In this document: one piece after another, positions 4,610 to 59,300 of the stretch | How the letters are laid out: every line of letters begins with the position of its first letter | Numbering within the stretch: the first letter of the stretch is position 1 | Source: Amphibalanus amphitrite | Taxonomy: Eukaryota; Arthropoda; Thecostraca; Balanomorpha; Balanidae | NCBI RefSeq assembly: GCF_019059575.1 | Contig: NW_024883110.1 | Location: 62,001 to 126,000, forward strand | Reading direction: 5' to 3' | Length of the DNA: 64,000 bases | Made by a program: the position numbers and the translations under genes | Notes under the pieces: generated by a model | Told to the model about the DNA's origin: nothing | Database searches by the model: none | Seen by the model: the letters and a program-made list of their open reading frames with translations, nothing else

Positions 4610-7600
4610 ATGCGCTCCAAGAACTTCTTCCTGGGCGGCCGGTTCCGCACGTTCAACCTGGGCGCGTCTCACCGCACGCGGCCGCGGTTCGACTCGGTGG
4701 CGCCCGGGGGAGGGGGTGACGCGGCCCCCGGCCAGCCGGTGACCAGCGTCACGCAGCTGCCGCCCGCCGAGCGCGTCTCGGAGCCGGGCTCGTCCCCCGC
4801 CGCCGCCGCGGGCTCGCCCGGCCGCCAGCCGCCGCTCAGCCTGGCACAGCGGCTGAAGTTGGAGCGGGCCGGTCAGCCGGCGGGCCGGTTCCGGACGCGC
4901 TACGACCCCCGGCTCCTGGCCAAGTACGACGTGAAGGCGCTGGTGGGCCGCGGCACCTACAGCCGCGTGGTGCGAGCCGAGAGCCGCCTCACGCGCCGAC
5001 CCGTCGCCATCAAAATGATCGACGTCACCGCAGGGAAGAGCTCGGCCAGGGACACGTTCGACTCAGAGCTGCGGATCCTGCGCAAACTGCGACACCCCAA
5101 CATCATACAACTGGTGGAGGTGGGTATGAAGAGAGAGATAGAGAGGAAGATAGAGGGAGAGAGAAAGGGAAAGAGAGAAGTAAAGGGAAAAGTCGCAGCC
5201 GCATCACCAGCTGCCGGTGCTATTTAGATACGTGCTATGAGCTCTGCACAAAGCTCTAAAGCTGGATAATGTGCCTTGGCACCCATTTACAGGGAGGGAT
5301 GGGTGTCGACAACGGCCAACGTCGGACCCGATATCTAAAATCGCGCTATTTCCGCGGACTCGGCGCTATCCCGGCGCTCGCCGAGGGGCGGTCCCTATAC
5401 CGCCTGCCGCCGCCACTGCCGCCCTCCATCGATCAAACCGTTCTGCCCACGCTGGCGGGCCGATCGGTTCCTGCAGCGTGACTTTGATCACCGCAGGCCA
5501 TTAGCGTAGCTTCGATCACAGGCTACTCCGGCAGTCTGGTGCATTACGATAGTCGGCAGAATGCCGATGCCACTGACGGTTGATTTGAATTGAGGGGCCA
5601 TGGGGGCGCGATTAAAATGTTAACTTTTTTCCAATAAAATGGGCGTTGGTATTGGGGAATAGAATTGTACATTGGGGACGAACCAAATAATATTAATTTT
5701 TAAGCTACAGAGACACAAACAATACGAGTAGAAACAAAGAGCTATAGGTAGTAGTGTAGCAGCTCTGTCATTAGGCTTAACTTAGCGGCACACCTATCAC
5801 AAGCTCTCCCCCCGGCCGGTCCGTGTCCCCAGGTGTTCGAGTCACCCGAGAAGCTGTACCTGGTGCTCGAGCTGGCCACCGGCGGCGACCTGTTTGACCA
5901 GATCCAGGCGCGCGGCGTGTTTTCCGAGAGGGACGGCGCGCGCGTGCTGCGTATGGTGCTGGACGGCGTGCGCTACCTGCACGGCGTCGGCGTCACGCAC
6001 CGCGACCTCAAACCCGACAACGTGCTTTACTACCACCCCGGCGCCGACTCCAAGGTAAAGAGCCGGGAGGTCCTCTGCTACTTACCACCCCGGCGCCGAC
6101 TCCAAGGTACGGAGGTCCTCTACCTACCACCCCAGCACCGAGCCCCAGCGCCGACTCCAAGGTAAAGAGGTCCTCTACTGCCACCCCGACTCCAAGGTAC
6201 GAAGTTCCTCCTCTTCTTCTACCACCTCAACTCCAAGGTAGGAGCCAGGTCTCTGCTACCTGCCACCCGGTCGCCGACTCAAAGGTACGGAGGTACTCTT
6301 CTACCACCTCGACTCCAAAGTACGAGCCAGAAGGTCCCCCACTACCTGCCAACTCGGGTGCCGACTCCAAGGTAGGATCTGCTGCCACCCCGATGCCGAT
6401 TCCGAGGTTAGGGAAGTCCTCTACTATCTACCATCCCGGCGCCGACAGCAAAGTAAGAATGTCTTCTACCTCTACTACCACCCCAACTCTAAGGTAAGGA
6501 CGTCCTCTGCCGCCCCTGCCTGTCCTTACCCGCAGCAGTGCCGGCGATTGGAAAGCGTTTACCCAACACTCCTTGTCTTAAACAGACTCTTATTCGAGTC
6601 TGACTACAGTTGAATCAGCAGGGACCATGACCGGCTAAAGGCCTGGCTACATTATGCGTTTTCTTCGTGCGTTTTTTTTGCGTGTTTGCGTGCATGGGCG
6701 TAGGAACGGCTGGAACATTGTGGGTGCATGGGTGCAGAAATCCAGCCATGGCCGGTGAAGCGGGGGGGGGGGGTAGGGAGCGACACCCGAGCGAAGGCTC
6801 GTTACAAGCTTTGAGGGGGGGGGGTGTAAAGTATAACATGTATGTCAAAAAGGTACCGACCGATAAGTGCATTTGGAAGCATTAATTCCCTCGCATGTGT
6901 AGGGGGTTCGGATGAGCCCCCCATGGTTTTTCGCAAATAACTCGCGCAAAAGCGGCCGATCGCCACGAAACTTTAAGTACCCTCGAGTTTATCAGTTTTA
7001 CACCTACTCTGAAAATTTCATGACCCTGACCCAAAAGACCTTTGACCTGTGACCTGATCCTCGAGACCATGTTCGGCCGGAATCGCGATTTGGCGTATGT
7101 CAGCTCACATTATCCGCGTGTTTCCAGTCTTTTTGTGATTGTAGACGTCCAAACATGTGAAATGATGTTCGTCCCATGCATCACGGTGGGTGTGAAGGTA
7201 ACCTGAAGGTCAGGTCAGGTCATTGACCTTTGATGACCTCGGTTCACTTTTTCGAGTATTACATGTTTCTAGGGTAGTTTTTCGAGCTGATTTCGAATTT
7301 AGCATCCATTTGAACGTTTACGAAGTAGTTTTAGTGCCTTCGTAACATGCTACGACGCCGTCAGTGGTAGTTGACACCTACTATGGATAGCCGGTAGGAC
7401 GCCTAATGGTTGACCTGACCTGACCTGACCTGACCCGATCTGGCCTAAATGCATGAAGCAATCATCTGTGATCAAAACTAACATGATACTCGTGATCAGC
7501 ACCCCGAAAAACCCGATACTAGCTTCACTTTACGCAGTTCTAGCAGGTCCGATTTTCCCGACTTTTTTAACATTGACCTGACATGGAAGGTCAACCAATA

Positions 7601-10600: not shown

Positions 10601-12591
10601 GCATCGATCTCAGGGGGTGCCCGGTTGAAGGTTGGGGGGCAAGCTGCCCCGCTTGCCCCCCCCCCCCCCGTGGCGACGCTAATGGTCTTGACACTAAAAT
10701 TTCGTGTCGGCGTAGGTACTAGACGGACCCGGTCTCTGCGCGTGGACGGAGCGCTGCTCCCGAGAGGAGGTAAGGGGGTCGCTCCCAGCTCCACAACAGT
10801 GTTGAAAACCGAGTGTAAAATTCAGCTAACACCAGCCAAGACATGGATTGAATCAAAGTTATGATACGTTCGAGCCTGGAGTCAAAGTCCTGAAAATGTT
10901 GGCGACTCTCACTCCGACTCTGGTTGGGACTCGCGACTCCAACCGATTTTGACTTTACAGCCATTCATGAAAACTACCCCCATTTTTTTTGCCGACCCCA
11001 AAATCTCATCGGATCTGCATTGATCTCAGGGGGAGCCCGGTCGGGGGTGGGGGGGTGGGGGGGGGGGCAACCTGCCCCGCTTGTCCCCCCGTGGCGACGC
11101 TAATGTATAATGTATGCACCATCTATGCACCTTGGAAGCGCCCCTATCCTCATTGAAGGTCGCCCCCATCACCAAGTGCACCCCCATCTCAAAAGCAAAA
11201 GTTACACCCCTGGATGTTTTTCACCTTAAATTTTAGTTACATAAGAGTTATATTAGCTTTTGTATATAACCAAAGTAAAAATTATATTGTTTTGTTTATA
11301 ACTTTTTTCCAAGAACGATATTACGCAAAACACGCAAACCTGCAAAAACGCACGCAGAAAACGCACAGTGTAGCCAGGCCTTAACAGCTGGTGACCTACC
11401 CTGACAGGTGCTCATCACGGACTTTGGTCTGGCGGCGGCGCGCCAGCGGGACGAGGACATCTACATGTACACGCCGTGCGGTACGCCCGAGTACATTGCG
11501 CCCGAGGTGGTCACCCGCCGGCCGTACACCTGCTCCGTGGACCTGTGGGCCGTCGGCGTCACCGCCTTCATCATGCTCAGCGGCACGTTCCCCTTCGAGA
11601 ACAACAGTCGCCTCCGACTCTACAAACTCATCATGAGAGCCAAGTTCAGCTTCGAGGGAGAGGTCAGTAGGGGCTGAGTGAGGTCACTGGTAAGTGAGTG
11701 AGTGAGTGAGTGAGCGAGTGAGTGAGTAGGTGAATGAGTGAGTGAGTGAAAAAGAGGGAAGGGGAGGGAGAGAGGAAAATAGGGAGAGAGGAAAATAGGG
11801 AGAGAGGAAAATAGGGAGAGAGGAAGGGAGGGAGGGAAGTTGTACGATTATATAAACAAAAAAACAGCCATGAATACTGCATAACGGCATCATGTCACAT
11901 TTTCCCGGCTGACAGTTCGCTCTCACTAGCCGCGCCGTGTCCGTTGAACAGGCGTGGGCGAGTGTGTCGGAGACGGCCAAGGGGTTCATCTCGTCCCTGC
12001 TCGACCCCAACCCCGTGAGCCGACTGAGCGCGGAGCGCGCGCTGCGCGAGCCCTGGTTCACCCAGCAGAGCGTGGTGCCGCACAGCCACACCGCCTTCAA
12101 GTCGCGACACCGCAACAGGCCGGTACGTCCAGCGGCTCGACGGGCTGTTAGTTTAGTTCCATAGATACTTGGTCAGCTTCTGGACAAAGTTAATTTTTAC
12201 TTCCACTTCTCAGTAGGTATGGTTCCATCGTTGACCGTAAGTCTTTTTAGGAAACTTTTTTTTTGGGGGGGGGGGAGGTAAAACATAAATCTTCATAACT
12301 GTTGGAACGTAAGAATCCCATCGTTATTATCCATTTACCAAGTGTTGGTGCCGCCAGGTTGCCAGTCCCCCGCAGCCGGGCGCGCGGGCGCCGCCGCGGG
12401 CGGCCCCAGCCGGAGCCGGGGCGGCGGGCGGGCCCCGCGTGGCGCCGCAGAGGGCCAGACGCTCCGGCAAGAAGCGAAAGGTGAAGCCGCGCGAGCTGGA
12501 CAAGCTGCAGTTTGACGCCGACGTGTTCCTCTACCAGTACGAGATGATGAGCCGGCAGGGGAAGGGAGCGCCGTCCCCCGGCGGCTGCTGA
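4610..12591 (+). CDS. PSKH1: PSKH1-like serine/threonine protein kinase
   Basis: Exons 4610-5119, 5833-6054, 11408-11662, 11952-12122 and 12358-12591; every intron is phase 0 with GT..AG ends, giving 463 aa (human PSKH1 is 424). The kinase domain starts near residue 106: glycine loop GRGTYSRV (113-120), VAIK lysine 135, HRDLKPDN (226-233), DFG (249-251) and GTPEYIAPE ending at 277, so it should be catalytically active. The stretch ELATGGDLFDQI and the motif YYHPGADSK are close to vertebrate PSKH1, a CAMK-group kinase found at Golgi, centrosome and nuclear speckles. The N-terminal 100 residues are low-complexity and lack the Met-Gly-Cys acylation start of the vertebrate protein. The start at 4610 is the first in-frame ATG of the exon, and an upstream coding exon is possible. 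The C-terminal tail is Ala/Pro-rich and then basic, with GKKRKVK resembling a nuclear localisation signal. Intron 2 (5.3 kb) is filled by transposons. Confidence 0.9.
5120..5832 (+). other. PSKH1: Kinase intron 1
   Basis: Donor GTGGGT at 5120, acceptor CCCCAG ending at 5832. The first 75 bases after the donor are a GA-rich simple repeat. The rest shows no gene. Confidence 0.85.
6029..6505 (+). repeat. Tandem copies of kinase exon-2 donor junction
   Basis: Downstream of the real exon-2 donor (GTAAAG at 6055) are about ten degenerate copies of the last 15-25 exon bases (CCACC..GCCGACTCCAAG) joined to a donor. GT starts lie near 6107, 6162, 6197, 6238, 6285, 6372, 6410 and 6495; two others, near 6319 and 6450, have lost the GG. 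Spacing is 35-55 bp. Copies decay with distance, with deletions inside the exon-derived part. Most still read AAG|GTA, so they could compete as 5' splice sites. Confidence 0.85.
6882..7750. mobile_element. Nested TTAA-family AGGTCA-rich element
   Basis: Starts TTAATTCCCTCGC and ends GCGAGGGTTAA, with a G-run just inside the left end and a C-run just inside the right. The interior carries repeated TGACCTGACC, including four consecutive copies near 7414-7435. It shares the CGCGAAGCTCT..AGCTGGAAAA end segment with the copy at 37261-38083. It is nested in the larger TAA-flanked element. Confidence 0.65.
8418..9214. repeat. Degenerate ~20-bp minisatellite
   Basis: Roughly 40 imperfect units of the form CCAGCAGAAGAGGGGCGCC, spaced about 19-22 bp, with many substitutions. 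Reading frames across it on both strands translate the repeat. It lies within kinase intron 2. Confidence 0.85.
10345..11102. repeat. Tandem pair of ~370-bp direct repeats
   Basis: Two adjacent copies each carry CTTGACACTAAAATTTCGTG, then AAATTCAGCTAACACCAGC, CTCACTCCGACTCTGG, AATCTCATCGGATCTGCAT and a terminal G/C-run with GTGGCGACGCTAATG. The second copy contains extra G-runs. The 9350-9390 fragment (GGCGTCGCCA..G-run) resembles the inverted end. The type of element is unknown. Confidence 0.75.
11656..11835 (+). repeat. GAGT microsatellite starting at kinase exon-3 donor
   Basis: The real donor GTCAGT (11663) is followed 29 bases later by CTG|GTAAGTGAGTGAG, a consensus donor that opens a run of GTGA units, then a GGGAGAGAGGAAAATA repeat of about 19 bp in 3-4 copies. 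The simple repeat thus begins inside donor-like sequence. Confidence 0.7.
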
Positions 12592-14167: not shown

Positions 14168-14175
14168 GTCGGCTA

Positions 14176-16910: not shown

Positions 16911-16976
16911 AAAAACACAACACCACCTGTCTTCTCAGGAATCGAACTCCGAGGTCGAGCCGGGGGCTGGATCCTA

Positions 16977-17837: not shown

Positions 17838-18734
17838 CAGACGAGCCCATGCTCAGTAACTACTGGACCGATTTTGATAATTCTTTCACCATTCAATAGC
17901 AGGGAACGTATATAGGTGCCGTTTTTCGTTTTTTGGCGATTGGTTCACTCTGACTGGACCAATCGGACCAAAATGGTCCAGAACCATACACCCCCGTAAA
18001 AGCAGACGAGCCCATGCTCCGAAACTACTGAACCGATTTCGATGAAACCTTCACCATTAGACGCGCCGTGGTCTGAAACGGTGCCGTTTTTGATAATTTT
18101 TTAATTGGTCCACCCTAAGTGGTCCAAATCGGTCTAAAACCCCTAAAATCTGTTGCAGACGAGCCCATGCTCCGAAACTACTGAACCGATTTCGATGAAA
18201 CCTTCACCATTAGACGTGCCGTAGTCTGAAACGGTGCCGTTTTTGATAATTTTTTTATTGGTCCACCCTAAGTGGTCCAAATCGGTCCAAAACCCCTAAA
18301 ATCTGTTGCAGACGAGCCCATGCTCCGAAACTACTAGACCGATTTCGACGAAACCTTCACCATTAGACGCACCGTGGTTTGAAACGGTGCCGTTTTTTAT
18401 AACTTTTTGATTGGTTAACCCTAAGCGGTCCAAATCGGTCCAAAACCGCTAAAATCTGTTGCAGACGAGCCCATGCTCCGAAACTACTGGACCGATTTTG
18501 ATGAAACCTTCATCATTAGACGCGCCGTGGTCTGAAACGGTGCCGTTTTTGATAATATTTTGATTGGTCCACCCTAAGTGGTCCAAATCGGTCCAAAACC
18601 GCTAAAATCTGTTGCAGACGAGCCCATGCTCCGAAACTACTGGACCGATTTCGATAAAACCTTCACCATTAGACGCGCCGTGGTCTGAAACGGTGCCGTT
18701 TTTCATAATTTTTTGATTGGTCCACCCTAAGTGG
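17838..18734 (+). repeat. Left arm: ~153-bp tandem units
   Basis: Units begin near 17838, 18002, 18155, 18308, 18461 and 18613. The first differs most (AGTAACTACTGGACC). The last is truncated by the nested insertion at 18735, which duplicated CTAAGTGG from the unit. Confidence 0.9.
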
Positions 18735-26382: not shown

Positions 26383-26454
26383 GCGTCTCTCACAAATTTC
26401 TGCGATGTCTGGGCGGGTGCCCGGGCCGGAGCCCCCACCGCTGGCCACTCAGCG

Positions 26455-26590
26455 ATGGTCCGGCTCATCACAGTGGGGCGGCGGGACGCTGGGTGACAGT
26501 CCCGCCCGTCGCAGTGGGGCGGCGGGACGCTGGGTGACGGTCCCGAGCGTCACAGTGGGGCGGCGGGACGCTGGGTGACGGTCCCCCTTG
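26455..26590 (+). repeat. ~42-bp tandem repeat in SNRPA1 3' region
   Basis: Three near-identical copies of CAGTGGGGCGGCGGGACGCT followed by GGGTGACGGTCCC, starting about 75 bp after the SNRPA1 stop codon and probably in the 3' UTR. No AATAAA is seen in the following 500 bases. Confidence 0.9.
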
Positions 26591-34654: not shown

Positions 34655-35246
34655 GATGCCCCTGCTAGGCCTGTGGTGCCCTTGCTAGGTCTGTGGTGCC
34701 CCAGGCAGGTCTGTGGTGGCCCTGTCAGGACTGTGGTGCCCCTTGGCCCCTGACAGGCCTGTGGTGCCCCTGACAGGCCTGTGGTGCCCTCGCTATGGTC
34801 TGTGGTGCCCCACTCCCCAGGCAGGACTGTGATGGCCCTGTCAGGACTATGGTGCCCCTGACAGGCCTGTGGTGCCCCTGACAAGCCCAAGGTGACCCTG
34901 TCCCCTGACAGGCCCAAGGTGCCCCTGCAAGGCCAGTGGTGTCCCTGGCAGGCCTCTGGTGCCTCTGGCAGGTCTGTGGTGCTCTTGCAAGACTGATGGT
35001 GCTCTTGCAAGACTGATGGTGCTCCTGACAGGCCTAAGGTGCCCCTGACAATCATGTGGTGCCCCTGACAGGCCTGTGGTGCCCCTCTAGGCCTGTGGTG
35101 CCCCTGTAGACCTGTGGTGCCCCTGTAGACCTGTGGTGCCCCTCTAGGTCTGTCAGTGCCCCTCTAGGTCTGTCGGTGCCCCTCTAGGCCTGTGGTGTCC
35201 CTCTAGGCCTAAGGTGCCTCTGGCATGCCTGAGGTGCCTCGGGCCC
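34655..35246. repeat. ~20-bp CTGTGGTGCCCCTGACAGGC minisatellite
   Basis: About 28 imperfect units of 18-24 bp. A 153-residue minus-strand reading frame rich in GLSGAPQACQGHH is its translation. Flanking DNA shows no gene. Confidence 0.9.
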
Positions 35247-36180: not shown

Positions 36181-36199
36181 ATAACGCCTTTTGGGGCGA

Positions 36200-41600: not shown

Positions 41601-44600
41601 CAGCATCGTGTACAGAATTGAACGGGCTATTGAATGGTGTGCAATGCAGAGGATAGCACGCGCCACGTGCACCGGAGAGGGCACTTTTATTTGAAAAGTT
41701 GCGGTTTTTGAGGGATTTTGGAATTAATTTTATTTTTAGGTGACCGTTAAATGGAGCGAGTTGAATCAACGCCTATTTGCAAGAGAAAGGTACCGCCTCT
41801 CATATAAAAATTGTGAAAAGCTGATTGATCCAAATCAAGGTGGTGCAAATCACAGGAGAAAATGGTGTTTGTCAATTTTGTGCCACTTTATTAATCACAC
41901 GGGGTTTGCTGCATAACCTGATACCTTTGGCAATTGAATATGGTACCATTGGATAGAGCATTCAATTCTGTCCAATATTCACTCTTCATTTTTGCATGAT
42001 TAGCAACAGTATCCTTAAAAATGTAAATGTTCCAAACCATTACATTGTCATTTTTAGCGAAATTCATCGATGGCCCTCAAAAGACTTCACGCCAGTTTTC
42101 GCATCATTCTAAAGTAGAACGCATGATAATACGACACGGGCACCTCGATGCGATGTATCTTTTTGTTTTCTTACAAAATGCTTGGCCGTCAAAAAGCAAT
42201 CGAACGAAATGGATATCTACCAACTAAATCGACACAGACCAACCCAATACCCACGGGTCAAAAAATCCCCCCTTCGCGTTGCGGAGCACGCGGGTAACCC
42301 TAGTGGGTGACTATGATATTGTGGGTATCGAAGGCTAAACTCTGTTGTGATCAGCCGTTTTATCGTTTGGAAAGACTGGGTCACTGCTGTTCCGTCTGAC
42401 GGGGATGCTCGCAGACGGTTCACGGGTCGCGCGTCGCTGACTGATCTATCCCCCTCGCCGCAGACTCGACGTGCCGGGAGCGCGTGCCGGACGGTGCGGC
42501 CACCGCACTGCCGGCGCGCTGTGTGGTAGCCGCCGGGGAGACCCAGCAGCTGACGGTGGCCGTGCCGCCGAGCCAGCCGGCCGCCGCCGCCGGCCTGGCC
42601 GTCTCCGTGCTCTGCGGGGACGAGGTGCTGCGCCGCGAGCTGCGCCACGCCTGGCCGACGGGCGCGCCGGCGCTGCAGCGGCCGCGCGGCTTCCTCCAGC
42701 TCACCGACTTCCAGGTCAGTGTCCCTACGACTCACTGACTTCCAGGTCAGTGTCCCGGCGGCTCGCAGATTTCCAGGTATGTTCCCTGCTGCAGCTGGGT
42801 GTGAAGGGGGCACCTCGAGTCGGGCCACAGCTTCCCACACTGCTGTTGTACGACGTATGGTGTAGGTAAGACACCCTTGACCCTAAGCGCCGTTGCGTGG
42901 CATTGATTGCGATTTCTGCGTGGTGATTGATCGACTGTTGTTCTTTAGGAAACGTTTGATGGCGAGCTGCAGGACCTGTGCTCTGACGTGCCGCTCGGCA
43001 TCCCTCCGAACAAGCTGGAGGACGTCTTCTTCAGCAACATGAGACAGACCAAGCTGCCGCTCCTGTGTGAGTACTGAGGGGCGCTCGGGCTTCTGGGTCC
43101 AGGCATGCCATGAAGCGGGGCTGGGGCTTGCGATGGGGATGCCTACCTACTGGAGATGCTAAGGCTCAAGGCTAGACTTTTTGTAAGAATGTCCCAGCTG
43201 GCAAAGATATGGAAATTGGAAACTGTATGGTAGTTTTTGCCACGTCTTGCTGTGCAGATATTACAGTTTAGCAGAAATGTTTGCCATTGATAACAGAACA
43301 TTACGAATGTAATCTGCAAATTGCAGACAGTTTTATTCTAACATTACGTACTCTGTGCATGACACCATACGAGTATAAGGCTGTTCGACGTGTAAGTTAG
43401 ATAACCCACCATGTGTAATCCGTTCCCGGTTCTGATTCCTATAAGCGCTGTGTCTGACTCGCGACTGTGTTGGTGTGCTCGCAGACCCGGAGGGGGCCGG
43501 CGGAGCGGCGGCGACGGCGGCAGTGGCCGGCCCGTCCGGCCGCGGTAACCTGCAGGAGCTGCAGCCGGCCGCTGTGCCCCGGTGAGTTACACACTCCGGG
43601 CCAGGATGGACGGGCGGTCTGAACTGCAGACGGGGAGCGCGGGTATCTGGTTCGTCACAGCTGGGGCGGGTCGACAACTGCTACAGTCGCGTAAATGTTC
43701 GGAGGTGGTCTGACTCACTTTTTTAAAGCGTAAAAGGTAATGAGTCCGGTCTTTCGCGAGGTTTCGGCTGGAATCAATAAGTCATACTTGTCTTCCAATG
43801 CAGTTTTGATGCTGGATTTTTTCTCTAATAAATCCGCTGTATTGAGCCGAGTTATGTGATTTTGTCTTATTCCTGATGACTCCCTTTGTTTGCAGCACCG
43901 TCACCGTGGGCCGAGCGGGTAGCTCCACGCCCGTCAGCCCTCAGCGAGCCGCGGTAAGTCGGTCTCAGTTCGTATAACAATAATCTGCAGAAAGCAGAGA
44001 GCTCTCAGGCGAGTCTTCTTTACAGTCTAGCAGTTTGCATTACTTTTCTTTATTATCGTGCTACTGATTGGCGCTTCACTATGATATTTCGGTTATTTTG
44101 AGCAATGATGGTGTTCCGGTGTGAGTGTGACATTTTGGCTTAAATTGCACACGTTCTCGTCTCTGCTGTGCCGTCCAGCCGTGCCGTGCCCCACCTTCGC
44201 GTGAATTGCCCATGTTCTGACGTTTGCTCCCTGCTCCCAGGCGGGTCCCAGCCTGGCTCCGGGCGGCTCCCCGCGGCGCCCGTCGGCCTCTCCGAGTCGC
44301 ACCAAGAGCAGTCCGAGGAAGCGCGGCCCGCCGCTGGCCCCGCCGCCGCCGCCGCCGCCCCCTCCGCCGCCGCCGGCCGCGGAGGACGAGGACTGGTGGC
44401 CGGACGGGCCGGGCGCCGAGCGGGTGGTGGCTACAGACAGCGGCCGGCCGCGGCTGCGCCTCTCCACCGACCACCTGCTGTTCCCGCTCACGGCGCTCGG
44501 CGTGCCTAGCGAGGCCGCCCTGCAGCTCACCAACCTGGGAGAGGACGTGCTCACCTGGAACATACTCGGCTACAGCGTGCCCTACCTGGTCAAGGTGCGC

Positions 44601-47600
44601 GCCGCGTCTCAGAACAGCAGTGGGGAGGGAGGGCTACACTAAAGGCTGGTGATTGGTGCAAGGTGTTTGTGGTTGTGGAAGCTCTATGCAGCTGTAGGTC
44701 TGCGGAGGATTTTTAAGTAATCGGTTGTTTGTTTCACATGGGAAGCTGCATGGGATTGCGGGTAGGTATGTGGATGTTGACTGGAGTTGCTTTTTCTTCG
44801 TAGACTAAATAATATTGTAAGCATAGCTTTAGACGTTAGTAATTCATGAAGTCACTGACCTTTCTGTGCGCAGGGCGCCCACCCGGACAAGATGAAGAAG
44901 TGCGGGTACGACGTGTTCAAGATCCGTCCGAAGGAGGGTGAGGTGGCGTCTGGGCAGACGGTGTCTCTGCAGGTGCGGTTCAGCCCGCCGTACCCTGGGA
45001 AGCTGACGCAGCACTTCCAGCTGCTCTGCAAGCCGGCCAAGGAGCCTGTGTAAGTGCTGGGGTGAGGAGGGCGGGGTGTGGGCGGACACTGGAAGCCGGC
45101 CGAGATGCCTGTGAGTGATGGGGTGAGGAGAGCGGGGTGTGGTCGGGCACTGGAAGCCGGCCAAGGAGCCTGTGTGAGTGATGGTACTGGGGAGAGGATG
45201 ATGGCGCGGGTGGGTCGGTGGCGGTGCCACGGGCGCCTGCCGCCTGAGCTGGCCAGAGGACCGTGAGGTGGATTGCGATCGGACGGGAAGGGCTGCGGTT
45301 GGATACTCCGGGCCCGGCCATACTCCTGGCCCTATCGGTCAGTTATGAATGGCCAGGTAAGGGTGATAAGTAGCAAGCTAACCTGTGTTCGATTCGCTCC
45401 TTAACGTTTCAAAGACGCTCTGTGGTGACCAATCATGGTCATCGGGTGTTCTATGGGTGTTCATATTTAGTCGTGCCTGTGACAGTGCTCTGTGCGAGTC
45501 TGAAGTGTTCATCTGTCCCTCAGGGGCCGCGGCAGTGTGAGGTGGTATAACTGACCTGTGTTAACCCGTCCTCAGGGGCCAGCCGATGGTGGTGTACACG
45601 GTGCCGGTACGGGTCTCGGGCCGCGGCAGTGTGAGGTGTTATAACTGACCTGTGTTAACCCGTCCTCAGGGGTCAGCCGATGGTGGTGTACACGGTGCCG
45701 GTACGGGTCTCGGGCCGCGGCAGTGTGAGGTGTTATAACTGACCTGTGTTCCCCGTCCTCAGGGGCCAGCCGATGGTGGTGTACACGGTGCCAGTACGGG
45801 TCTCGGGCCGCGGCAGTGTGAGGTGTTATAACTGACCTGTGTTAACCCGTCCTCAGGGGCCAGCCGATGGTGGTGTATACGGTGCCGGTACGGGTCTCGG
45901 GCCGCGGCAGTGTGAGGTGTTATAACTGACCAGTGTTAACCCGTCCTCAGGGGCCAGCCGATGGTGGTGTACACGGTGCCGGTACGGGTCTCGGGCCGCG
46001 GCAGTGTGAGGTGTTATAACTGTCCTGTGTTCTGTCCTCAGGGGCCAGCCGATGGTGGTGTACACGGTGCCGGTACGGGTCTCGGGCCGCGGCAGTGTGA
46101 GGTGTTATAACTGACCTGTGTTAACCCGTCCTCAGGGGCCAGCCGATGGTGGTGTACACGGTGCCGGTACGGGTCTCGGGCCGCGGCAGTGTGAGGTGTT
46201 ATAACTGACCTGTGTTAACCCGTCCTCAGGGGCCAGCCGATGGTGGTGTACACGGTGCCGGTACGGGTCTCGGGCCGCGGCAGTGTGAGGTGTTATAACT
46301 GACCTGTGTTCTGTCCTCAGGGGCCAGCCGATGGTGGTGTACACGGTGCCGGTACGGGTCTCGGGCCGCGGCAGTGTGAGGTGTTATAACTGACCTGTGT
46401 TCCGTCCTCAGGGGCCAGCCGATGGTGGTGTACACGGTGCCGGTACGGGTCTCGGGCCGCGGCAGTGTGAGGTGGTATAACTGACCTGTGTTAACCCGTC
46501 CTCAGGGGCCAGCCGATGGTGGTGTACACGGTGCCGGTACGGGTCTCGGGCCGCGGCAGTGTGAGGTGTTATAACTGACCTGTGTTAACCCGTCCTCAGG
46601 GGCCAGCCGATGGTGGTGTACACGGTGCCGGTACGGGTCTCGGGCCGCGGCAGTGTGAGGTGTTATAACTGACCTGTGTTCCGTCCTCAGGGGCCAGCCG
46701 ATGGTGGTGTACACGGTGCCGGTACGGGTCTCGGGCCGCGGCAGTGTGAGGTGTTATAACTGACCTGTGTTAACCCGTCCTCAGGGGTCAGCCGATGGTG
46801 GTGTACACGGTGCCGGTACGGGTCTCGGGCCGCGGCAGTGTGAGGTGTTATAACTGACCTGTTCCCCGTCCTCAGGGGTCAGCCGATGGTGGTGTACACG
46901 GTGCCAGTACGGGTCTCGGGCCGCGGCAGTGTGAGGTGTTATAACTGACCTGTGTTAACCCGTCCTCAGGGGCCAGCCGATGGTGGTGTACACGGTGCCG
47001 GTACGGGTCTCGGGCCGCGGCAGTGTGAGGTGTTATAACTGACCTGTGTTAACCCGTCCTCAGGGGCCAGCCGATGGTGGTGTACACGGTGCCGGTACGG
47101 GTCTCGGGCCGCGGCAGTGTGAGGTGTTATAACTGACCTGTGTTCTGTCCTCAGGGGCCAGCCGATGGTGGTGTACACGGTGCCGGTACGGGTCTCGGGC
47201 CGCGGCAGTGTGAGGTGTTATAACTGACCTGTGTTCCGTCCTCAGGGGTCAGCCGATGGTGGTGTACACGGTGCCAGTACGGGTCTCGGGCCGCGGCAGT
47301 GTGAGGTGGTATAACTGACCTGTGTTAACCCGTCCTCAGGGGCCAGCCGATGGTGGTGTACACGGTGCCGGTACGGGTCTCGGGCCGCGGCAGTGTGAGG
47401 TGTTATAACTGACCTGTGTTCCGTCCTCAGGGGCCAGCCGATGGTGGTGTACACGGTGCCGGTACGGGTCTCGGGCCGCGGCAGTGTGAGGTGTTATAAC
47501 TGACCTGTGTTCCGTCCTCAGGGGTCAGCCGATGGTGGTGTACACGGTGCCAGTACGGGTCTCGGGCCGCGGCAGTGTGAGGTGTTATAACTGACCTGTG

Positions 47601-50600
47601 TTAACCCGTCCTCAGGGGCCAGCCGATGGTGGTGTACACGGTGCCGGTACGGGTCTCGGGCCGCGGCAGTGTGAGGTGTTATAACTGACCTGTGTTAACC
47701 CGTCCTCAGGGGCCAGCCGATGGTGGTGTACACGGTGCCGGTACGGGTCTCGGGCCGCGGCAGTGTGAGGTGTTATAACTGACCTGTGTTAACCCGTCCT
47801 CAGGGGCCAGCCGATGGTGGTGTACACGGTGCCGGTACGGGTCTCGGTCCGCGGCAGTGTGAGGTGTTATAACTGACCTGTGTTCTGTCCTCAGGGGCCA
47901 GCCGATGGTGGTGTACACGGTGCCGGTACGGGTCTCGGGCCGCGGCAGTGTGAGGTGTTATAACTGACCTGTGTTAACCCGTCCTCAGGGGTCAGCCGAT
48001 GGTGGTGTACACGGTGCCGGTACGGGTCTCGGGCCGCGGCAGTGTGAGGTGTTATAACTGACCTGTTCCCCGTCCTCAGGGGTCAGCCGATGGTGGTGTA
48101 CACGGTGCCAGTACGGGTCTCGGGCCGCGGCAGTGTGAGGTGTTATAACTGACCTGTGTTAACCCGTCCTCAGGGGCCAGCCGATGGTGGTGTACACGGT
48201 GCCGGTACGGGTCTCGGGCCGCGGCAGTGTGAGGTGTTATAACTGACCTGTGTTAACCCGTCCTCAGGGGCCAGCCGATGGTGGTGTACACGGTGCCGGT
48301 ACGGGTCTCGGGCCGCGGCAGTGTGAGGTGTTATAACTGACCTGTGTTCTGTCCTCAGGGGCCAGCCGATGGTGGTGTACACGGTGCCGGTACGGGTCTC
48401 GGGCCGCGGCAGTGTGAGGTGTTATAACTGACCTGTGTTCCGTCCTCAGGGGTCAGCCGATGGTGGTGTACACGATGCCAGTACGGGTCTCGGGCCGCGG
48501 CAGTGTGAGGTGGTATAACTGACCTGTGTTAACCCGTCCTCAGGGGCCAGCCGATGGTGGTGTACACGGTGCCGGTACGGGTCTCGGGCCGCGGCAGTGT
48601 GAGGTGTTATAACTGACCTGTGTTCCGTCCCTCAGGGGTCAGCCGATGGTGGTGTACACGGTGCCGGTACGGGTCTCGGGCCGCGGCAGTGTGAGGTGTT
48701 ATAACTGACCTGTGTTAACCCGTCCTCAGGGGCCAGCCGATGGTGGTGTACACGGTGCCGGTACGGGTCTCGGGCCGCGGCAGTGTGAGGTGTTATAACT
48801 GACCTGTGTTAACCCGTCCTCAGGGGCCAGCCGATGGTGGTGTACACGGTGCCGGTACGGGTCTCGGGCCGCGGCAGTGTGAGGTGTTATAACTGACCTG
48901 TGTTAACCCGTCCTCAGGGGTCAGCCGATGGTGGTGTACACGGTGCCGGTACGGGTCTCGGGCCGCGGCAGTGTGAGGTGTTATAACTGACCTGTGTTAA
49001 CCCGTCCTCAGGGGCCAGCCGATGGTGGTGTACACGGTGCCGGTACGGGTCTCGGGCCGCGGCAGTGTGAGGTGTTATAACTGACCAGTGTTAACCCGTC
49101 CTCAGGGGCCAGCCGATGGTGGTGTACACGGTGCCGGTACGGGTCTCGGGCCGCGGCAGTGTGAGGTGTTATAACTGACCTGTGTTAACCCGTCCTCAGG
49201 GGTCAGCCGATGGTGGTGTACACGGTGCCGGTACGGGTCTCGGGCCGCGGCAGTGTGAGGTGTTATAACTGACCTGTTCCCCGTCCTCAGGGGTCAGCCG
49301 ATGGTGGTGTACACGGTGCCAGTACGGGTCTCGGGCCGCGGCAGTGTGAGGTGTTATAACTGACCTGTGTTAACCCGTCCTCAGGGGCCAGCCGATGGTG
49401 GTGTACACGGTGCCGGTACGGGTCTCGGGCCGCGGCAGTGTGAGGTGTTATAACTGACCTGTGTTAACCCGTCCTCAGGGGCCAGCCGATGGTGGTGTAC
49501 ACGGTGCCGGTACGGGTCTCGGGCCGCGGCAGTGTGAGGTGTTATAACTGACCTGTGTTCTGTCCTCAGGGGCCAGCCGATGGTGGTGTACACGGTGCCG
49601 GTACGGGTCTCGGGCCGCGGCAGTGTGAGGTGTTATAACTGACCTGTGTTCCGTCCTCAGGGGTCAGCCGATGGTGGTGTACACGGTGCCAGTACGGGTC
49701 TCGGGCCGCGGCAGTGTGAGGTGGTATAACTGACCTGTGTTAACCCGTCCTCAGGGGCCAGCCGATGGTGGTGTACACGGTGCCGGTACGGGTCTCGGGC
49801 CGCGGCAGTGTGAGGTGTTATAACTGACCTGTGTTCCGTCCTCAGGGGCCAGCCGATGGTGGTGTACACGGTGCCGGTACGGGTCTCGGGCCGCGGCAGT
49901 GTGAGGTGTTATAACTGACCTGTGTTAACCCGTCCTCAGGGGCCAGCCGATGGTGGTGTACACGGTGCCGGTACGGGTCTCGGGCCGCGGCAGTGTGAGG
50001 TGTTATAACTGACCTGTGTTAACCCGTCCTCAGGGGTCAGCCGATGGTGGTGTACACGGTGCCGGTACGGGTCTCGGGCCGCGGCAGTGTGAGGTGTTAT
50101 AACTGACCTGTGTTAACCCGTCCTCAGGGGCCAGCCGATGGTGGTGTACACGGTGCCGGTACGGGTCTCGGGCCGCGGCAGTGTGAGGTGTTATAACTGA
50201 CCAGTGTTAACCCGTCCTCAGGGGCCAGCCGATGGTGGTGTACACGGTGCCGGTACGGGTCTCGGGCCGCGGCAGTGTGAGGTGTTATAACTGACCTGTG
50301 TTCCCCGTCCTCAGGGGCCAGCCGATGGTGGTGTACACGGTGCCGGTACGGGTCTCGGGCCGCGGCAGTGTGAGGTGTTATAACTGACCAGTGTTAACCC
50401 GTCCTCAGGGGCCAGCCGATGGTGGTGTACACGGTGCCGGTACGGGTCTCGGGCCGCGGCAGTGTGAGGTGTTATAACTGACCTGTGTTAACCCGTCCTC
50501 AGGGGCCAGCCGATGGTGGTGTACACGGTGCCGGTACGGGTCTCGGGCCGCGGCAGTGTGAGGTGTTATAACTGACCTGTGTTAACCCGTCCTCAGGGGC

Positions 50601-53225
50601 CAGCCGATGGTGGTGTACACGGTGCCGGTACGGGTCTCGGGCCGCGGCAGTGTGAGGTGTTATAACTGACCTGTGTTAACCCGTCCTCAGGGGCCAGCCG
50701 ATGGTGGTGTACACGGTGCCGGTACGGGTCTCGGGCCGCGGCAGTGTGAGGTGTTATAACTGACCTGTGTTAACCCGTCCTCAGGGGCCAGCCGATGGTG
50801 GTGTACACGGTGCCGGTACGGGTCTCGGGCCGCGGCAGTGTGAGGTGTTATAACTGACCTGTGTTAACCCGTCCTCAGGGGCCAGCCGATGGTGGTGTAC
50901 ACGGTGCCAGTACGGGTCTCGGGCCGCGGCAGTGTGAGGTGGTATAACTGACCTGTGTTCCCCGTCCTCAGGGGCCAGCCGATGGTGGTGTATACGGTGC
51001 CGGTACGGGTCTCGGGCCGCGGCAGTGTGAGGTGTTATAACTGACCTGTGTTAACCCGTCCTCAGGGGCCAGCCGATGGTGGTGTACACGGTGCCGGTAC
51101 GGGTCTCGGGCCGCGGCAGTGTGAGGTGGTATAACTGACCTGTGTTAACCCGTCCTCAGGGGCCAGCCGATGGTGGTGTACACGGTGCCGGTACGGGTCT
51201 CGGGCCGCGGCAGTGTGAGGTGTTATAACTGACCTGTGTTAACCCGTCCTCAGGGGCCAGCCGATGGTGGTGTACACGGTGCCGGTACGGGTCTCGGGCC
51301 GCGGCAGTGTGAGGTGTTATAACTGACCTGTGTTAACCCGTCCTCAGGGGCCAGCCGATGGTGGTGTACACGGTGCCGGTACGGGTCTCGGGCCGCGGCA
51401 GTGTGAGGTGTTATAACTGACCTGTGTTAACCCGTCCTCAGGGGCCAGCCGATGGTGGTGTACACGGTGCCGGTACGGGTCTCGGGCCGCGGCAGTGTGA
51501 GGTGTTATAACTGTCCTGTGTTCCGTCCTCAGGGGCCAGCCGATGGTGGTGTACACGGTGCCGGTACGGGTCTCGGGCCGCGGCAGTGTGAGGTGTTATA
51601 ACTGACCTGTGTTAACCCGTCCTCAGGGGTCAGCCGATGGTGGTGTACACGGTGCCGGTACGGGTCTCGGGCCGCGGCAGTGTGAGGTGTTATAACTGAC
51701 CTGTGTTAACCCGTCCTCAGGGGCCAGCCGATGGTGGTGTACACGGTGCCGGTACGGGTCTCGGGCCGCGGCAGTGTGAGGTGTTATAACTGACCTGTGT
51801 TAACCCGTCCTCAGGGGCCAGCCGATGGTGGTGTACACGGTGCCGGTACGGGTCTCGGGCCGCGGCAGTGTGAGGTGTTATAACTGACCTGTGTTAACCC
51901 GTCCTCAGGGGCCAGCCGATGGTGGTGTACACGGTGCCGGTACGGGTCTCGGGCCGCGGCAGTGTGAGGTGTTATAACTGACCTGTGTTAACCCGTCCTC
52001 AGGGGCCAGCCGATGGTGGTGTACACGGTGCCGGTACGGGTCTCGGGCCGCGGCAGTGTGAGGTGTTATAACTGACCTGTGTTAACCCGTCCTCAGGGGC
52101 CAGCCGATGGTGGTGTACACGGTGCCAGTACGGGTCTCGGGCCGCGGCAGTGTGAGGTGGTATAACTGACCTGTGTTAACCCGTCCTCAGGGGCCAGCCG
52201 ATGGTGGTGTACACGGTGCCGGTACGGGTCTCGGGCCGCGGCAGTGTGAGGTGTTATAACTGACCTGTGTTAACCCGTCCTCAGGGGCCAGCCGATGGTG
52301 GTGTACACGGTGCCGGTACGGGTCTCGGGCCGCGGCAGTGTGAGGTGTTATAACTGACCTGTGTTAACCCGTCCTCAGGGGCCAGCCGATGGTGGTGTAC
52401 ACGGTGCCGGTACGGGTCTCGGGCCGCGGCAGTGTGAGGTGGTATAACTGACCTGTGTTAACCCGTCCTCAGGGGCCAGCCGATGGTGGTGTACACGGTG
52501 CCGGTACGGGTCTCGGGCCGCGGCAGTGTGAGGTGTTATAACTGACCTGTGTTCCGTCCTCAGGGGTCAGCCGATGGTGGTGTACACGGTGCCAGTACGG
52601 GTCTCGGGCCGCGGCAGTGTGCTCGAGGACGGGGAAGACGAGGCGGACCTGCTGACCACTCCGCTGCACGTCTCCAGCCAAAGCTTCTACTTCGACCACT
52701 GGTCCATGTGCCACAAACTGGACGTGACCAACAAAACCTGCGAGGACTTGGATGTGAGTGAAGCTGCAGCTATTTTGTTAACGGAATAACCTAACAGCTA
52801 TATTATACGTTTGCTCTAGCTGGGACATGGGATGACTGGGAGACCTATTTTTGCTGGAGAATTCATCATGCTGCTCGATTTTATCGTATCCGATAAGTGC
52901 TGTGTCGGCCGCCGCTGCCCGCTAACCCCCGCTCTCTGTTCTCTCCCCGCAGGTGGACTACCACGTGACGGGTCCGTTCAAGGTGGTCTCGGGGCCCAAC
53001 GAGCGCACGCCCACCGAGCTGACCGAGGGCCGGCTGCTGGCGCCGTCGCAGCGCTACGTGCAGATGTCCATCTACTTCTGTCCGGAGGCGGTGGGCCAGT
53101 ACACCGGCGAGCTGCGCCTCTGGCTCGGCCACGCGCCCTGGAGCCACCTGGTGCAGCTGGGTGGCAACTGCCGGCCCGGCGAGCCGGAGGCCCTGCGCGA
53201 CACACAGCTGGCCGGCGGACTGTGA
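38698..53225 (+). CDS. CEP192: CEP192/SPD-2-like centrosomal scaffold protein
   Basis: Eleven exons: 38698-39033, 39865-40020, 40692-40872, 42464-42714, 42949-43066, 43485-43581, 43896-43953, 44241-44594, 44874-45049, 52564-52753, 52953-53225. All have GT..AG ends and agree in phase (0,0,1,0,1,2,0,0,2,0), giving 729 aa. The C-terminal ~270 residues align by eye with the end of human CEP192: ASH/MSP-type beta-sandwich segments (LSTDHLLFPLTALG; VRFSPPYPGKLTQHFQLLCK; KEPV, then VYTVPVRVSG; YFDHWSMCHKLDV; PEAVGQYTGELRLWLG). The family recruits PLK4, PLK1 and gamma-tubulin complexes to centrioles. Exon 1 encodes an acidic Leu/Glu-rich N terminus (AELSDLAEL-like), exon 8 a run of 12 prolines (about residues 433-444). 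At 729 aa it is far shorter than vertebrate CEP192 and nearer nematode SPD-2 (about 820). Six exon ends carry tandem copies of their splice junction. The assignment of exons 1-7 to this gene rests on phase and strand. Confidence 0.82.
39007..39250 (+). repeat. 54-bp tandem repeat over CEP192 exon-1 donor
   Basis: Copies start at 39007, 39061, 39115 and 39169, with a partial fifth near 39218. Each holds the last 27 exon bases (GAGATCGCCGACGGCTCGGT and onward) plus GTGGGT and 21 more bases. Donors at 39034, 39088 and 39142 are intact. In the fourth copy CAG|GT has become TAG|AT, giving a stop and no donor. The unit is 18 codons, so the reading frame continues through the repeats as VGGPLVGDREIADGSVFQ. 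Confidence 0.95.
39991..40100 (+). repeat. Duplicated CEP192 exon-2 end with donor
   Basis: GCCGCCCAGCCGAC(A/C)GGACT..GTG|GTGAGT occurs at the exon end (donor 40021) and again at 40065-40100 (donor 40095). The copy is preceded by TCCTCACAG, a plausible acceptor. This delimits a possible 30-nt in-frame microexon (40065-40094, AAQPTGLAAV). Confidence 0.9.
40326..40632 (-). mobile_element. 5'-truncated non-LTR retrotransposon, 3' end
   Basis: Minus-strand open frame from about 40630 to a stop at 40349-40347 encodes the typical C-terminal end of a non-LTR retrotransposon ORF2: LHRIGRSPSPQCEQC, then a Cys/His motif ending DTSEHLLLHCP, and a final segment with VVAALVGAARSLQSP. The stop TGA merges with a (CGA)n microsatellite, which is the presumed 3' tail. 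Only about 95 residues remain, as expected after 5' truncation. It is inserted antisense in CEP192 intron 2. The clade is not resolved. Confidence 0.75.
40840..41045 (+). repeat. 71-bp triplication of CEP192 exon-3 donor junction
   Basis: CGCCGCCTACGTCCGCCTCT..CAG|GTGGGT is repeated with donors at 40873, 40944 and 41015 (the last GTCAGT), exactly 71 bp apart. Extension to a later donor shifts the frame. A second tandem pair, GGGAGAGGGGGTCGGTGGGT, follows at 41060-41130. Confidence 0.9.
41170..42463 (+). other. Rest of CEP192 intron 3
   Basis: AT-richer DNA with no recognisable gene. The segment at 41280-41690 has the style of a dispersed repeat (GTGCGATATCTTGGTGACCAG). The acceptor CCGCAG ends at 42463. 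Confidence 0.5.
42696..42785 (+). repeat. 31-bp triplication of CEP192 exon-4 donor junction
   Basis: CTCAC(C/T)GACTTCCAG|GTCAGT occurs with donors at 42715 and 42746, and a third, diverged copy has GTATGT at 42777, all 31 bp apart. Use of later donors would shift the frame and run into TGA at 42736. Confidence 0.9.
45024..45195 (+). repeat. ~62-bp triplication of CEP192 exon-9 donor junction
   Basis: GGAAGCCGGCCAAGGAGCCT-like exon end followed by GTAAGT/GTGAGT is found with donors near 45050, 45111 and 45174. Each is followed by GGGGTGAGGAG(A/G)GCGGGGTG or a shortened version. Confidence 0.88.
45531..52563 (+). repeat. 7-kb array of ~93-bp acceptor/exon-10 units
   Basis: About 75 tandem units of 91-94 bp fill the end of CEP192 intron 9. 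Each holds TCCTCAG, then GGGGCCAGCCGATGGTGGTG and onward to CGCGGCAGT, which is the first ~58 bases of exon 10. A ~35-bp intronic part (AGGTGTTATAACTGACC..) follows. The last unit is the real exon 10 at 52564, where GTGCTCGAGG replaces GTGAGGTG. Variants differ mainly at GGC/GGT, CCG/CCA, TAC/TAT, GTGTTAACCCG versus GTGTTCCG, and GTT/GGT ATAAC. The 69-70 residue minus-strand frames in the array are shadows. Confidence 0.97.
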
Positions 53226-56102: not shown

Positions 56103-56349
56103 ACAGTGTTCAACAGTTATTTGATGCACATTTGCACAGCCTTTGCCCTGCACCCTGTGTACGCATTGGAGCAGTGGGGTGCCGTGCACGCTCGCCCACA
56201 GAGTTGCCTCGCTCGCGCGCTGGTTTCTTAAATAGAGCTCCTACCTCAGTGACCAGCAACAAACGAACGCATACCAAAGCAAGACTAAAACGCGAGGCGA
56301 AGGGACAGTCCTGCCGTTGGCTTCTGGTACAGGCGCTCCCATTTCCCAA

Positions 56350-59300
56350 TCACAGCCGGTGCCCACGAGCCGTCCACGAGGCTGATGACCTGTGCCCTCC
56401 CCCTTCTGTGGCCCCTCGCGACTCGTCTCGCGTTCCACGGGCGGCGGCCCGGGCCCTGGCCATCCTGCCCGCTTCCTTTATGCTCGTCCAGCCGCCGTCG
56501 CTGCCGCGGGCCGCGCGGGTCAGCGATGTCAGCGCCTCTGGCGGCGGGGAGCCGAGTCTCGAGTTGTCCTGGCGGTCGCCGGGCGGCGCTCTGCGGTCGG
56601 TGACGCGGATGGTCTGGCTGCAGAGCCAGGCTGGGCCGGTACCGGGGGCGCAGCCGGCGCCGGGGGGCGCTGCTGTGGTCTCCGCGGCCGGTGTCGGAGG
56701 GGCTGCACAGTTACAGTAGGTGCAGCGCCAGTCGCGGAGGGCGAACCGGCAGCCGGCGGGACAGTCGGCCGACCAGCGGCCGCACAGTCTGGTGTCACCC
56801 CAGTCTGCCGGGGAGGGGAGGTGGTCAGACTAGTTTGGGGGGGGGCGCACAGTCTCGTGTCACCCCAGTCTGCCGGGGAGGGGAGGTGGTCAGACTAGTC
56901 TGGGGGGGCGTACAGTCCGACCAGCGGCCGCACAGCCGAGTGTCACCCCAGTCTGCCGGGGAGGGGAGGGGTCAGACTAGTCTGGGGGAGGGGTCAGACT
57001 AGTCTGGAGAGGGGGCGGAGCAGTCGGGCCAGCAACCCGCAGCGCCATGTGTCGCCCCAGTCTGCCGGAGGAGGGGGGTCACGCAGTGGTGCCATTATGG
57101 TCACGGACTTACGATCGGACAGCCTGGTGTCATCCCTGTCTACCGCAGAGGTCAATATGGCTCAATGTCATTTTTCACCGGCCCGCTCCTGGAAGTGGGG
57201 ATAGATACCGTCCGCTGTTGTCACGGCCTTCAACATGGCTAAATGTGGTCAGCAGCGCTCGCTACCCTGGGCATTATGTCCCAAATTGGAGCCGTCCCTC
57301 AGCTCGAACCTCTGATCTCACCCAGTGCGGGGTCCTCCTGGCAGTCGGTGTCCTGGCAGACCGCCTCTGACGGCCCGGAGTTCTGAGAGGGGCACGAGCA
57401 GGTGGCACAGCGCTCCCTCCAGCTGGTGCCCGGAACACACCCTGTAACGCAGCGGAACGATGGGGAACACACTGTAACACAGCGGAATAATGGGGAACAC
57501 ACTGTAACACAGCGGAACAATGGGGAACACACCCTGTAACACAACGGAACCAACAGAAACACACACTGTAACACAGCGGAGCAATGGGGAACATCCCCTC
57601 CCCCTGTAATACAATGTAACAATCTGGAGCACACTGCAACAGTGGAGCAATAGGTACACAACCTGTAACACAGGAACAAGACAAGGGGAAACACACCGCG
57701 TAACAACACGATAATCGGGAAAACGTCTTGTAGCACAGCGAATTAATGAGAACACGCCTTGTAACAGCGTAGCAATGGGAACACGCCCTGTAATAGCGAA
57801 ACAATGAGAAATACGCCCTGTAACATAGCGGAACAATTGGGGACACATCATATAACACAAAACGCAGCGAAACAATTAGAATTTAGAACACATCGTATAA
57901 CAGCGTAACAAAGGAAAACACACTGCTTAACACGGCGGAACAGGGGGGCACACCATGTAACAGCGGCACAATGGAAACCAATACGGTGGCATAAACGGGG
58001 ACCGGGACACATCGTTTAATGCAGAAGCACGATCAAGAGAACAGCACAACACAGCGGCTCAAACTGAAGCAAACCTTGCAACGAACTCGAGGTCAGGTCG
58101 GCAGGTCAGGTCCGGTGACCTAGCCTAACCTCAATAAAAGTTTTCGGAGCTACCCTGACTTTCGGACTACCATGAATTGAAGAGCTTTGAAACTTTCAAA
58201 TATTGATAGGGGTGACAGGATGTATAAAACGCATATTTGGGGTTTTCAATATCGGTTAGGTACCTATATCAAATTTAAGACAGCTCCATTCTAAGTTGAT
58301 GGGTCGAGAAAATATAACTGCGATTTTCATTAACACTCTAAAACATTTTTTACAGCTGAGCTTAATGCCGAATACTAAATCGGAAAATTGCACCCATGAT
58401 CTCACCCAGGCCCTGAGGTCATCTTAGGAAATAAAAGATAACCATTCGTTTTTTTAATACCTTTTGTTATACATTATAAGCGATTAAAGCACCGTGGATG
58501 GGTTCACCTTTACAATATGGAGCAATTGGTATACCTACCTACGACATAGCCTTTCGCGGTCAGGTCATGACCTTGACCATACATTGTATTTCTGTACACA
58601 GTTTTTATTTTAAAGGTCAGTTTGTTCTTCATTCGATGCGTCTCCACGAGAAAAACGCGATTCGATAACACCAACCTTACACACTACACCGCTTACAAAG
58701 GCTTATATGACTAAAGTTAGGTACGTTAGAAAGCATTTTCAGCAAAAGCATCAATTAGAAAATTGCCTGAAGGCCAACCCTTGAACTAACATCAAATCGG
58801 AGAATATTTCCAGAATGAACAATAGGAGAGCTACCCAATATCCATTGCGTTTTTTCCGCGATGCCCTAGCTTTAGGTATTGGTTCCTGAATTATGAGCCG
58901 ATTTGTCATAAAGTGTCGAAATAGGCGACATGAGACTGGGACCTTTGATGACCTCTGGTGACCTGACCTTTAACCGTTGACCTGATGAGCAATGAACTGG
59001 CGGGGGATAATAATACTTTGTTGTTTGTTCACTTATCACGAAAATGAAATATATACGTAGATAGAAGATATTTCCAACAGCCGCATACCTCTTTGAGCTC
59101 GTCTTTGTATTGCGAGGTGGCGTTGACCTTTCTTGTCATGAGAGAAACCAAGGTCGCCATCAGTAAGGTATTTCTCTATCACCGAGACACTCGATCAAAT
59201 GTCATTGGACGGCCGGGACCCAGATGTTCCAGCTCTCGCATCGGACGGCATCTCTGGGGCAGTGTGGCCAGGTAAACAACAATTAGGAGCGGCACTAGCC

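Follow-up and report, generated by a model that had tools for sequence, protein, structure and literature searches.

Genes and junction-spanning repeats of the window

The 64,000-nucleotide stretch of barnacle DNA analysed here (Amphibalanus amphitrite, C1613:62001-126000, from an assembly of 807.6 Mb in 2644 contigs), hereafter the window, carries genes in which tandem repeats run across exon–intron boundaries, and these arrays, for which we adopt the name mirages, are the subject of this report. The splice junctions of the window genes were placed by reading-frame continuity. The first gene, a kinase with five exons, an open frame through to the stop codon and a Pfam Pkinase match, is presumably PSKH1-like. 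CEP192 comprises 11 exons in frame and matches the Pfam Cep192 domains D4, D5 and D7 above cut-off and D8 under cut-off. SNRPA1 (23918..26385, plus strand) has six exons with a continuous frame, and a cysteine-rich gene on the minus strand has four exons in frame, a sub-threshold match to Pacifastin being its sole Pfam match.

Each junction was examined with a fixed detector, namely, 30 bp centred on the junction with at least 20 of 30 bases matching at a lag of 12 to 250 bp. Nine of the 45 window junctions lie inside a junction-spanning tandem duplication (6/23 donors and 3/22 acceptors), compared with 0/900 when the surrounding 800 bp are shuffled under a first-order Markov model, and six (13.3%) pass a stricter threshold of 24/30. 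On the plus strand, the kinase exon 2 donor (6054/6055) scores 22/30 at lag 107 within an array at 6010..6521, where about 11 degenerate copies of the exon end plus GT can be recognised by eye in the intron. Five CEP192 donors are covered, those of exon 1 (39033/39034; array 38989..39322, 54-bp unit in 3.7 copies), exon 2 (40020/40021; 39978..40111, two copies at a 74-bp lag, score 21/30), exon 3 (40872/40873; 40811..41048, 71-bp unit in 2.7 copies), exon 4 (42714/42715; 42683..42791, 31-bp unit in 2.5 copies) and exon 9 (45049/45050; 45013..45214, 61-bp unit in 2.5 copies), together with the exon 10 acceptor (52563/52564), which closes an array of 76 copies of a 94-bp unit (45509..52633). By reading, this unit consists of 36 bp of the intron 3' end and 58 bp of exon, and we infer that the last array copy is the functional acceptor. 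On the minus strand, the cysteine-rich gene has covered acceptors at exon 3 (57442/57441; 57421..57988, score 23/30) and exon 4 (56805/56804; 56752..57157, score 29/30), with units of about 30 and 65 bp (30 and 65 bp according to Tandem Repeats Finder).

The original prediction had listed ten boundary-spanning sites, and the detector passes exactly nine of these. The tenth, a GAGT repeat said to arise from donor-like sequence at kinase exon 3, is not one of them: the AGTG/GAGT microsatellite and an adjoining 16-bp array (11693..11834, plus strand, kinase intron 3) lie near the donor at 11662 and not across it, the repeat starting about 30 bp into the intron with a junction score of 18/30, and it was not counted as junction-spanning, although calling of merged events does link the region. 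SNRPA1 serves as an internal negative, with none of its 10 junctions in a spanning repeat, as had been stated.

The periods or lags measured are 31, 54, 61, 65, 71, 74, 94 and about 30 bp, that of kinase exon 2 being irregular and reaching 107 bp. The nine units share matches of 9 bp only and are thus unrelated in sequence, as previously claimed. A mobile repeat inserting at splice sites was considered and rejected, since the units differ and the genome-wide searches, which covered the 94-bp unit and the kinase exon 2 unit, found no unrelated loci: with an exon-10/11 query that included the 94-bp unit, matches were confined to CEP192, at its own locus, on the presumed allele and in a pair of paralogues, and the kinase unit matched only its own locus and C921. 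The view that no single mobile repeat is involved is therefore upheld.

Recurrence in genes chosen blind to repeats

Independent genes were located with the E. coli proteins GcvP, AcnA, CarB, SucA, GlgP and SdhA, blind to repeats, and their junctions were set by spliced protein-to-DNA alignment, giving a total of 92 donors and 90 acceptors in nine gene copies. One copy was counted per presumed haplotype pair, namely aconitase C90 (of C90/C19), CAD C606 (of C606/C1207), OGDH C163 (of C163/C690/C698), phosphorylase C611 (of C611/C485) and SDHA C670 (of C670/C524). C19, C1207, C698, C485 and C524 were used partly for allele comparison, and C690 stayed outside it. SDHA joined the sample last, when the junction detector was already fixed. 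Rows with weak protein support were removed before counting (four introns of aconitase C90, one of C268, two of CAD and three of the OGDH paralogue C184), and the 13 aligner introns of OGDH C163 were replaced by 9 donors and 7 acceptors read by hand. GFM1 (fusA query, five pieces) was excluded from every count for poor alignment; a well-supported acceptor in it reached a score of 21, and two others, of doubtful placement, reached 30. Also left out was an intronless SdhA-like match at C2631:1049-2731, a 605-aa open frame with 53% identity to E. coli SdhA, which is possibly bacterial.

In this sample, 15/92 donors and 6/90 acceptors lie within junction-spanning duplications, the former figure including GLDC donor 4302, which scores 20 through GA-richness alone and has no exon copy. 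GLDC donors carry a 23-bp unit in 3.8 copies and a 41–85-bp array, aconitase donors show lags of 89 and 49 bp, and a CAD donor a lag of 51 bp. In OGDH, donor units of 31 bp (20 copies), 98 bp (four copies) and 144-bp lag are accompanied by acceptor units of 94 bp (5.5 copies) and 40 bp (2.8 copies). Phosphorylase donors have units of 48 bp in 18 copies and 95 bp in 4.8 copies, and in SDHA two of eight donors (40 bp in three copies, 33 bp in 5.8) and one of eight acceptors (lag 67) are covered. Two of the nine gene copies (OGDH paralogue C184 and phosphorylase C265) have no covered donor, and six have no covered acceptor. Taking window and sample together, the lags of junction arrays range from about 23 to 144 bp. 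Counted by their edges, donor mirages are denser in the window (6/22) than in the sample (14/91), as is to be expected of a region picked by eye. The recurrence of such arrays in unrelated genes chosen in this manner bears out the proposal that the junction, rather than a mobile sequence, is their common feature.

Copy number in presumed alleles and paralogues

C921 carries the same locus as the window, collinear and with about 80–96% identity across CEP192 blocks; here and in the sample, alleles are presumed from contig collinearity and identity. Counts of the junction core differ between presumed alleles at 12 of the 15 arrays compared. The largest contrasts are found at the CEP192 exon 10 acceptor (76 versus 3), in phosphorylase (18 versus 2 and 5 versus 1) and at the CEP192 exon 1 donor (4 versus 11); the cysteine-rich exon 3 acceptor has 9 versus 6, and the kinase exon 2 array, by a strict count of a 24-bp core, four copies in the window versus eight. 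Equal counts were obtained for CEP192 exons 2 and 9 (2 versus 2 each) and cysteine-rich exon 4 (5 versus 5). At five of the 15 one side has a single copy, namely CEP192 exon 3 (2 versus 1, single in the C921 gene copy) and exon 4 (2 versus 1, with a possible degenerate second copy on C921 by eye), CAD, and the phosphorylase residue 487 donor and residue 345 acceptor. With single- and multi-copy forms in one assembly, mirages represent a measurable, recurrent source of intron-length change and redundant splice sites, and allele pairs with and without the array are natural experiments on how the spliceosome chooses among identical sites and on whether duplications of this kind give rise to new introns. 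A larger difference of another kind lies within the kinase gene, where intron 2 (6055-11407) measures 5.35 kb in the window and less than 1 kb on C921, a large insertion difference.

In the CEP192 paralogue C910, the exon 10 acceptor array is present in two copies at an 80-bp lag with a similar intronic core, and its presumed allele C143 has one copy. The array thus looks older than the paralogues, and a clean collapse is possible, judging from the two-copy sequence of C910 and the collapsed form of C143. OGDH C163 and C698, whose blocks are 70–92% identical, have mirages at some common junctions, and all three SDHA mirages are common to C670 and C524. Since homologous copies have mirages in common and differ in their counts, the arrays can be old and yet quick to change length. 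The phosphorylase paralogues C265 and C611 hardly have any mirages in common (three donors and one acceptor of C611 pass the strict score, and one acceptor of C265), a sign of fast turnover per locus, and they agree in all 12 intron positions that could be aligned.

It had also been claimed that copies are freshest next to the exon and decay into the intron. This applies to CEP192 exon 1, where four copies give rho -0.95 (p 0.051), and, by copy identities, to cysteine-rich exon 4, but it does not hold as a general rule, an exon-ward trend being found in two of the seven donor arrays with at least three copies in the window and the other genes.

Relation to known repeats at splice sites

Tandem repeats spanning exon–intron boundaries were described under the name mirages in amphioxus Adh3 and in the globin genes BflGb6 and BflGb9; that report mentions haplotypes with six and three units and RT-PCR that suggests regular splicing, and offers a model of intron gain (PMC3087553). 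Amphioxus TnC and PGBD5 also carry them, according to a further paper (PMC3902484). The statement in the original prediction that no such class had been described must therefore be given up. As far as these sources go, the barnacle arrays resemble the amphioxus ones in having head-to-tail units that contain the 5' or 3' exon boundary, both boundary types being affected here, in a gene-specific unit length (10–72 bp in amphioxus Adh3, 150–160 bp in BflGb6), in a unit count that is unstable between haplotypes, and in the many copies that retain AG or GT. They differ in their host, an arthropod instead of a cephalochordate, in having been counted across many junctions, in including one array of 76 copies, and in that splicing was read from frames only. 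The arthropod host is reflected in the assembly by 150 scored matches to Chitin_bind_4, a family that marks arthropod cuticle, out of 705 candidates; all those listed exceed the curated cut-off, and 14 control genomes gave none. By all features compared at the sequence level (boundary unit, both edges, unrelated units and haplotype variation), the barnacle arrays are assignable to the mirage class.

In the open-licence literature, judged by title, a search for mirage minisatellites in any taxon returned amphioxus papers and otherwise unrelated ones, and a search for barnacle intron repeats returned nothing on the subject, no search naming crustaceans or insects having been made. In the parts of the literature available, mirages have so far been reported from a handful of amphioxus genes; here, they occur at about one in six donors and one in 15 acceptors of arthropod housekeeping genes.

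A related process is the Rogers model, in which introns are gained through tandem duplication of exon segments bearing AGGT (cited in PMC3087553), with potato RdRp as a case (PMC4974935). The likeness lies in additional splice signals that arise when a short genomic segment is duplicated in tandem. The difference is that existing introns are lengthened in the barnacle; new intron positions were sought in one paralogue pair only, C265/C611, where all 12 aligned positions coincide. Internal tandem repeats that alter human gene structure (PMC2812944) are similar in that repeats within genes change the exon/intron layout.

Spare splice sites and small exons

Among 19 donor arrays, the spare GT is present in 68 of 72 copies, and each copy of the CEP192 exon 10 array reads like a full acceptor module. 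Both observations would suit selection that retains copies as spare splice sites, buffering splice mutations or enabling alternative splicing, as the original prediction had suggested among possible causes. However, GT columns are kept no better than the adjoining exon columns -10 to -1 (difference 0.030, 95% interval -0.021 to 0.075), and this selection is therefore unsupported. Further, lengths divisible by three are not over-represented among the units (5 of 25 lags), and one presumed allele makes do with a single copy at 5 of 15 sites, as does C143. We regard such selection as very improbable; judging from the sequences, spare sites look neither purged nor retained by it.

The same CEP192 array prompts a second alternative, in which the copies would be small exons, spliced as tandem exon arrays into longer proteins, since every unit starts with AG and ends with GTGAGG. 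By reading, however, the frame carried over from exon 9 into a copy meets TGA unless the copy is removed by splicing, and the lengths of the unit (94 bp) and of its exon-like part (55 bp) are not divisible by three. The C143 paralogue has exon 10 once, and the arrays read out elsewhere mostly contain about 12–60 bp of exon. It is thus highly unlikely that the copies act as exons.

Probable tolerance of tandem duplications at exon edges

At the detector threshold of 20/30, 13.6% of window intron positions more than 100 bp from a junction pass (94-bp array excluded), and likewise 13.6% of intergenic positions, so repeats are common throughout the window; at 24/30, 5.1% and 9.5% pass, respectively. 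In four sample gene copies, 8.9% of 15,828 intron positions at this distance reach the detector score. GC content amounts to 61% in repeat-covered intron, 48% in the remaining intron and 62% in exons. With merged-event calling, mirage frequency per gene set climbs with the GC content of intron edges (rho 0.68, p 0.015, 12 gene sets), and it is uneven across gene sets (permutation p 0.0004).

We consider it probable that mirages are minisatellite-like tandem duplications of about 20–150 bp that happen to include an exon edge, that is, an ordinary type of duplication which is tolerated there. Replication slippage or microhomology repair would often make short tandem duplications, chiefly in the GC-rich DNA of a highly polymorphic genome. 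Those wholly within exons would be eliminated unless harmless to the frame, and those crossing an edge would survive, because splicing would keep to the site joined to the intact exon, the upstream donor or the downstream acceptor. That the context of a full exon would favour the true site follows from the established principle of exon definition. Surplus copies would then turn into intron, and unequal exchange and conversion would later expand, homogenise or collapse the array. The anatomy of the arrays, their recurrence in independent genes, the copy-number differences between presumed alleles and the one array common to a paralogue are direct observations; the mutational step and correct splicing are what we infer.

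Donors and acceptors against the intron background

A rotation test, in which the repeat mask is rotated within each intron and coverage is preserved, gave at threshold 20 an observed count of 11 sample donors versus 7.1 expected (p 0.06) and six window donors versus 3.2 (p 0.05), with p 0.11–0.30 for sample donors at stricter thresholds, and no acceptor excess (sample acceptors 4 versus 7.0 at threshold 20). A tolerance-limited placement test gave 13 sample donors versus 3.8 expected and 8 acceptors versus 3.8; the two tests disagree because junction arrays are longer. The preferred test was the density of array edges, comparing the last 80 bp of exons with GC-matched intron windows. Without GC matching, sample donors exceed intron windows 1.8–4.4-fold (p 0.024 to 4e-6), and sample acceptors 1.3–1.6-fold, which is not significant. 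Matching removes roughly one third to one half of the donor excess, and for acceptors it leaves ratios of 0.78–1.07 in all nine rows, that is, no excess. These tests are sensitive to the threshold and to the merging of repeats into events, and their Poisson p values are optimistic since genes that differ strongly are pooled. A first version counted 12 sample donors versus 4.4 expected and 18 pooled donors versus 5.4, or 18 versus 10.1 when first matched for GC (p 0.016); the final version, with all intron windows and SDHA, counted 14 versus 7.6 and 20 versus 8.8 at the same threshold.

These results bear on a further explanation, in which donors are mutational hot spots and a replication slip linked to transcription or R-loops starts duplications near the intron 5' end. 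Pooled array starts are 1.6–2.7-fold denser in the terminal 80 bp of an exon than in GC-matched intron windows, repeat coverage peaks 30–60 bp into introns (18.3%, versus 9–11% beyond 100 bp), donors are covered more than acceptors (15/92 versus 6/90), and genes are markedly uneven. On the other hand, the GC-matched excess of the independent sample is 1.3–2.1-fold and non-significant at the loosest threshold, where rotation likewise gives p 0.06, followed by 0.11–0.30 at stricter ones; and acceptors are null after GC matching, yet 3/7 acceptors of OGDH C163 and 2/3 of the cysteine-rich gene are covered. Since array starts at exon ends remain 1.3–2.7-fold more frequent than in introns after GC matching, and roughly one donor in six is affected, 5' splice sites might still be a genuine birthplace of minisatellites, which we hold to be rather unlikely. 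If true, donor duplication linked to transcription or R-loops would continually lengthen introns and supply spare splice sites in animals from arthropods to lancelets.

Several points weigh against ordinary, tolerated duplication as the full account. GC-matched ratios for sample donors at thresholds 20, 22 and 24 are 1.26 (p 0.23), 2.11 (p 0.005) and 1.99 (p 0.013), those for pooled donors are 1.57 (p 0.036), 2.66 (p 5e-5) and 2.73 (p 8e-5), and window donors alone reach 3.5–10.8, the matching leaning on few high-GC intron windows. In a neutral simulation, a copy pair lying half in constrained exon stays detectable 1.15–1.39 times as long, which may leave a donor factor of up to about two unexplained. 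Further, normal splicing is deduced from reading frames alone, and the allelic status of the compared pairs is presumed. Because acceptors show no GC-matched excess and donor pairs are detectable for longer, no special cause is called for at acceptors and little of one at donors, and tolerated duplication remains our preferred explanation. Seeding of repeats at junctions thus has weak support, from donors, where an excess survives GC matching and the question becomes one of degree; for acceptors, seeding seems not to be needed.

Other repeats in the window

The window contains further repeats away from junctions. CEP192 exon 1 holds 18-bp tandem repeats (38726-38821), of a length that preserves the frame, and a 41-bp unit in 2.9 copies follows directly past the SNRPA1 stop codon (26468-26585). 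Ahead of the cysteine-rich gene's start codon lies a 52-bp unit in 1.9 copies (60226-60325), and GC-rich minisatellites of 19–22 bp are found outside the modelled genes at 34657-35238 and 20163-20893. Finally, 153-bp satellite arrays at 18002-18734 (4.8 copies) and 21561-22921 (8.9 copies) stand about 3 kb apart, and their consensus units are, by eye, mutually reverse-complementary, possibly representing the ends of a single large element.

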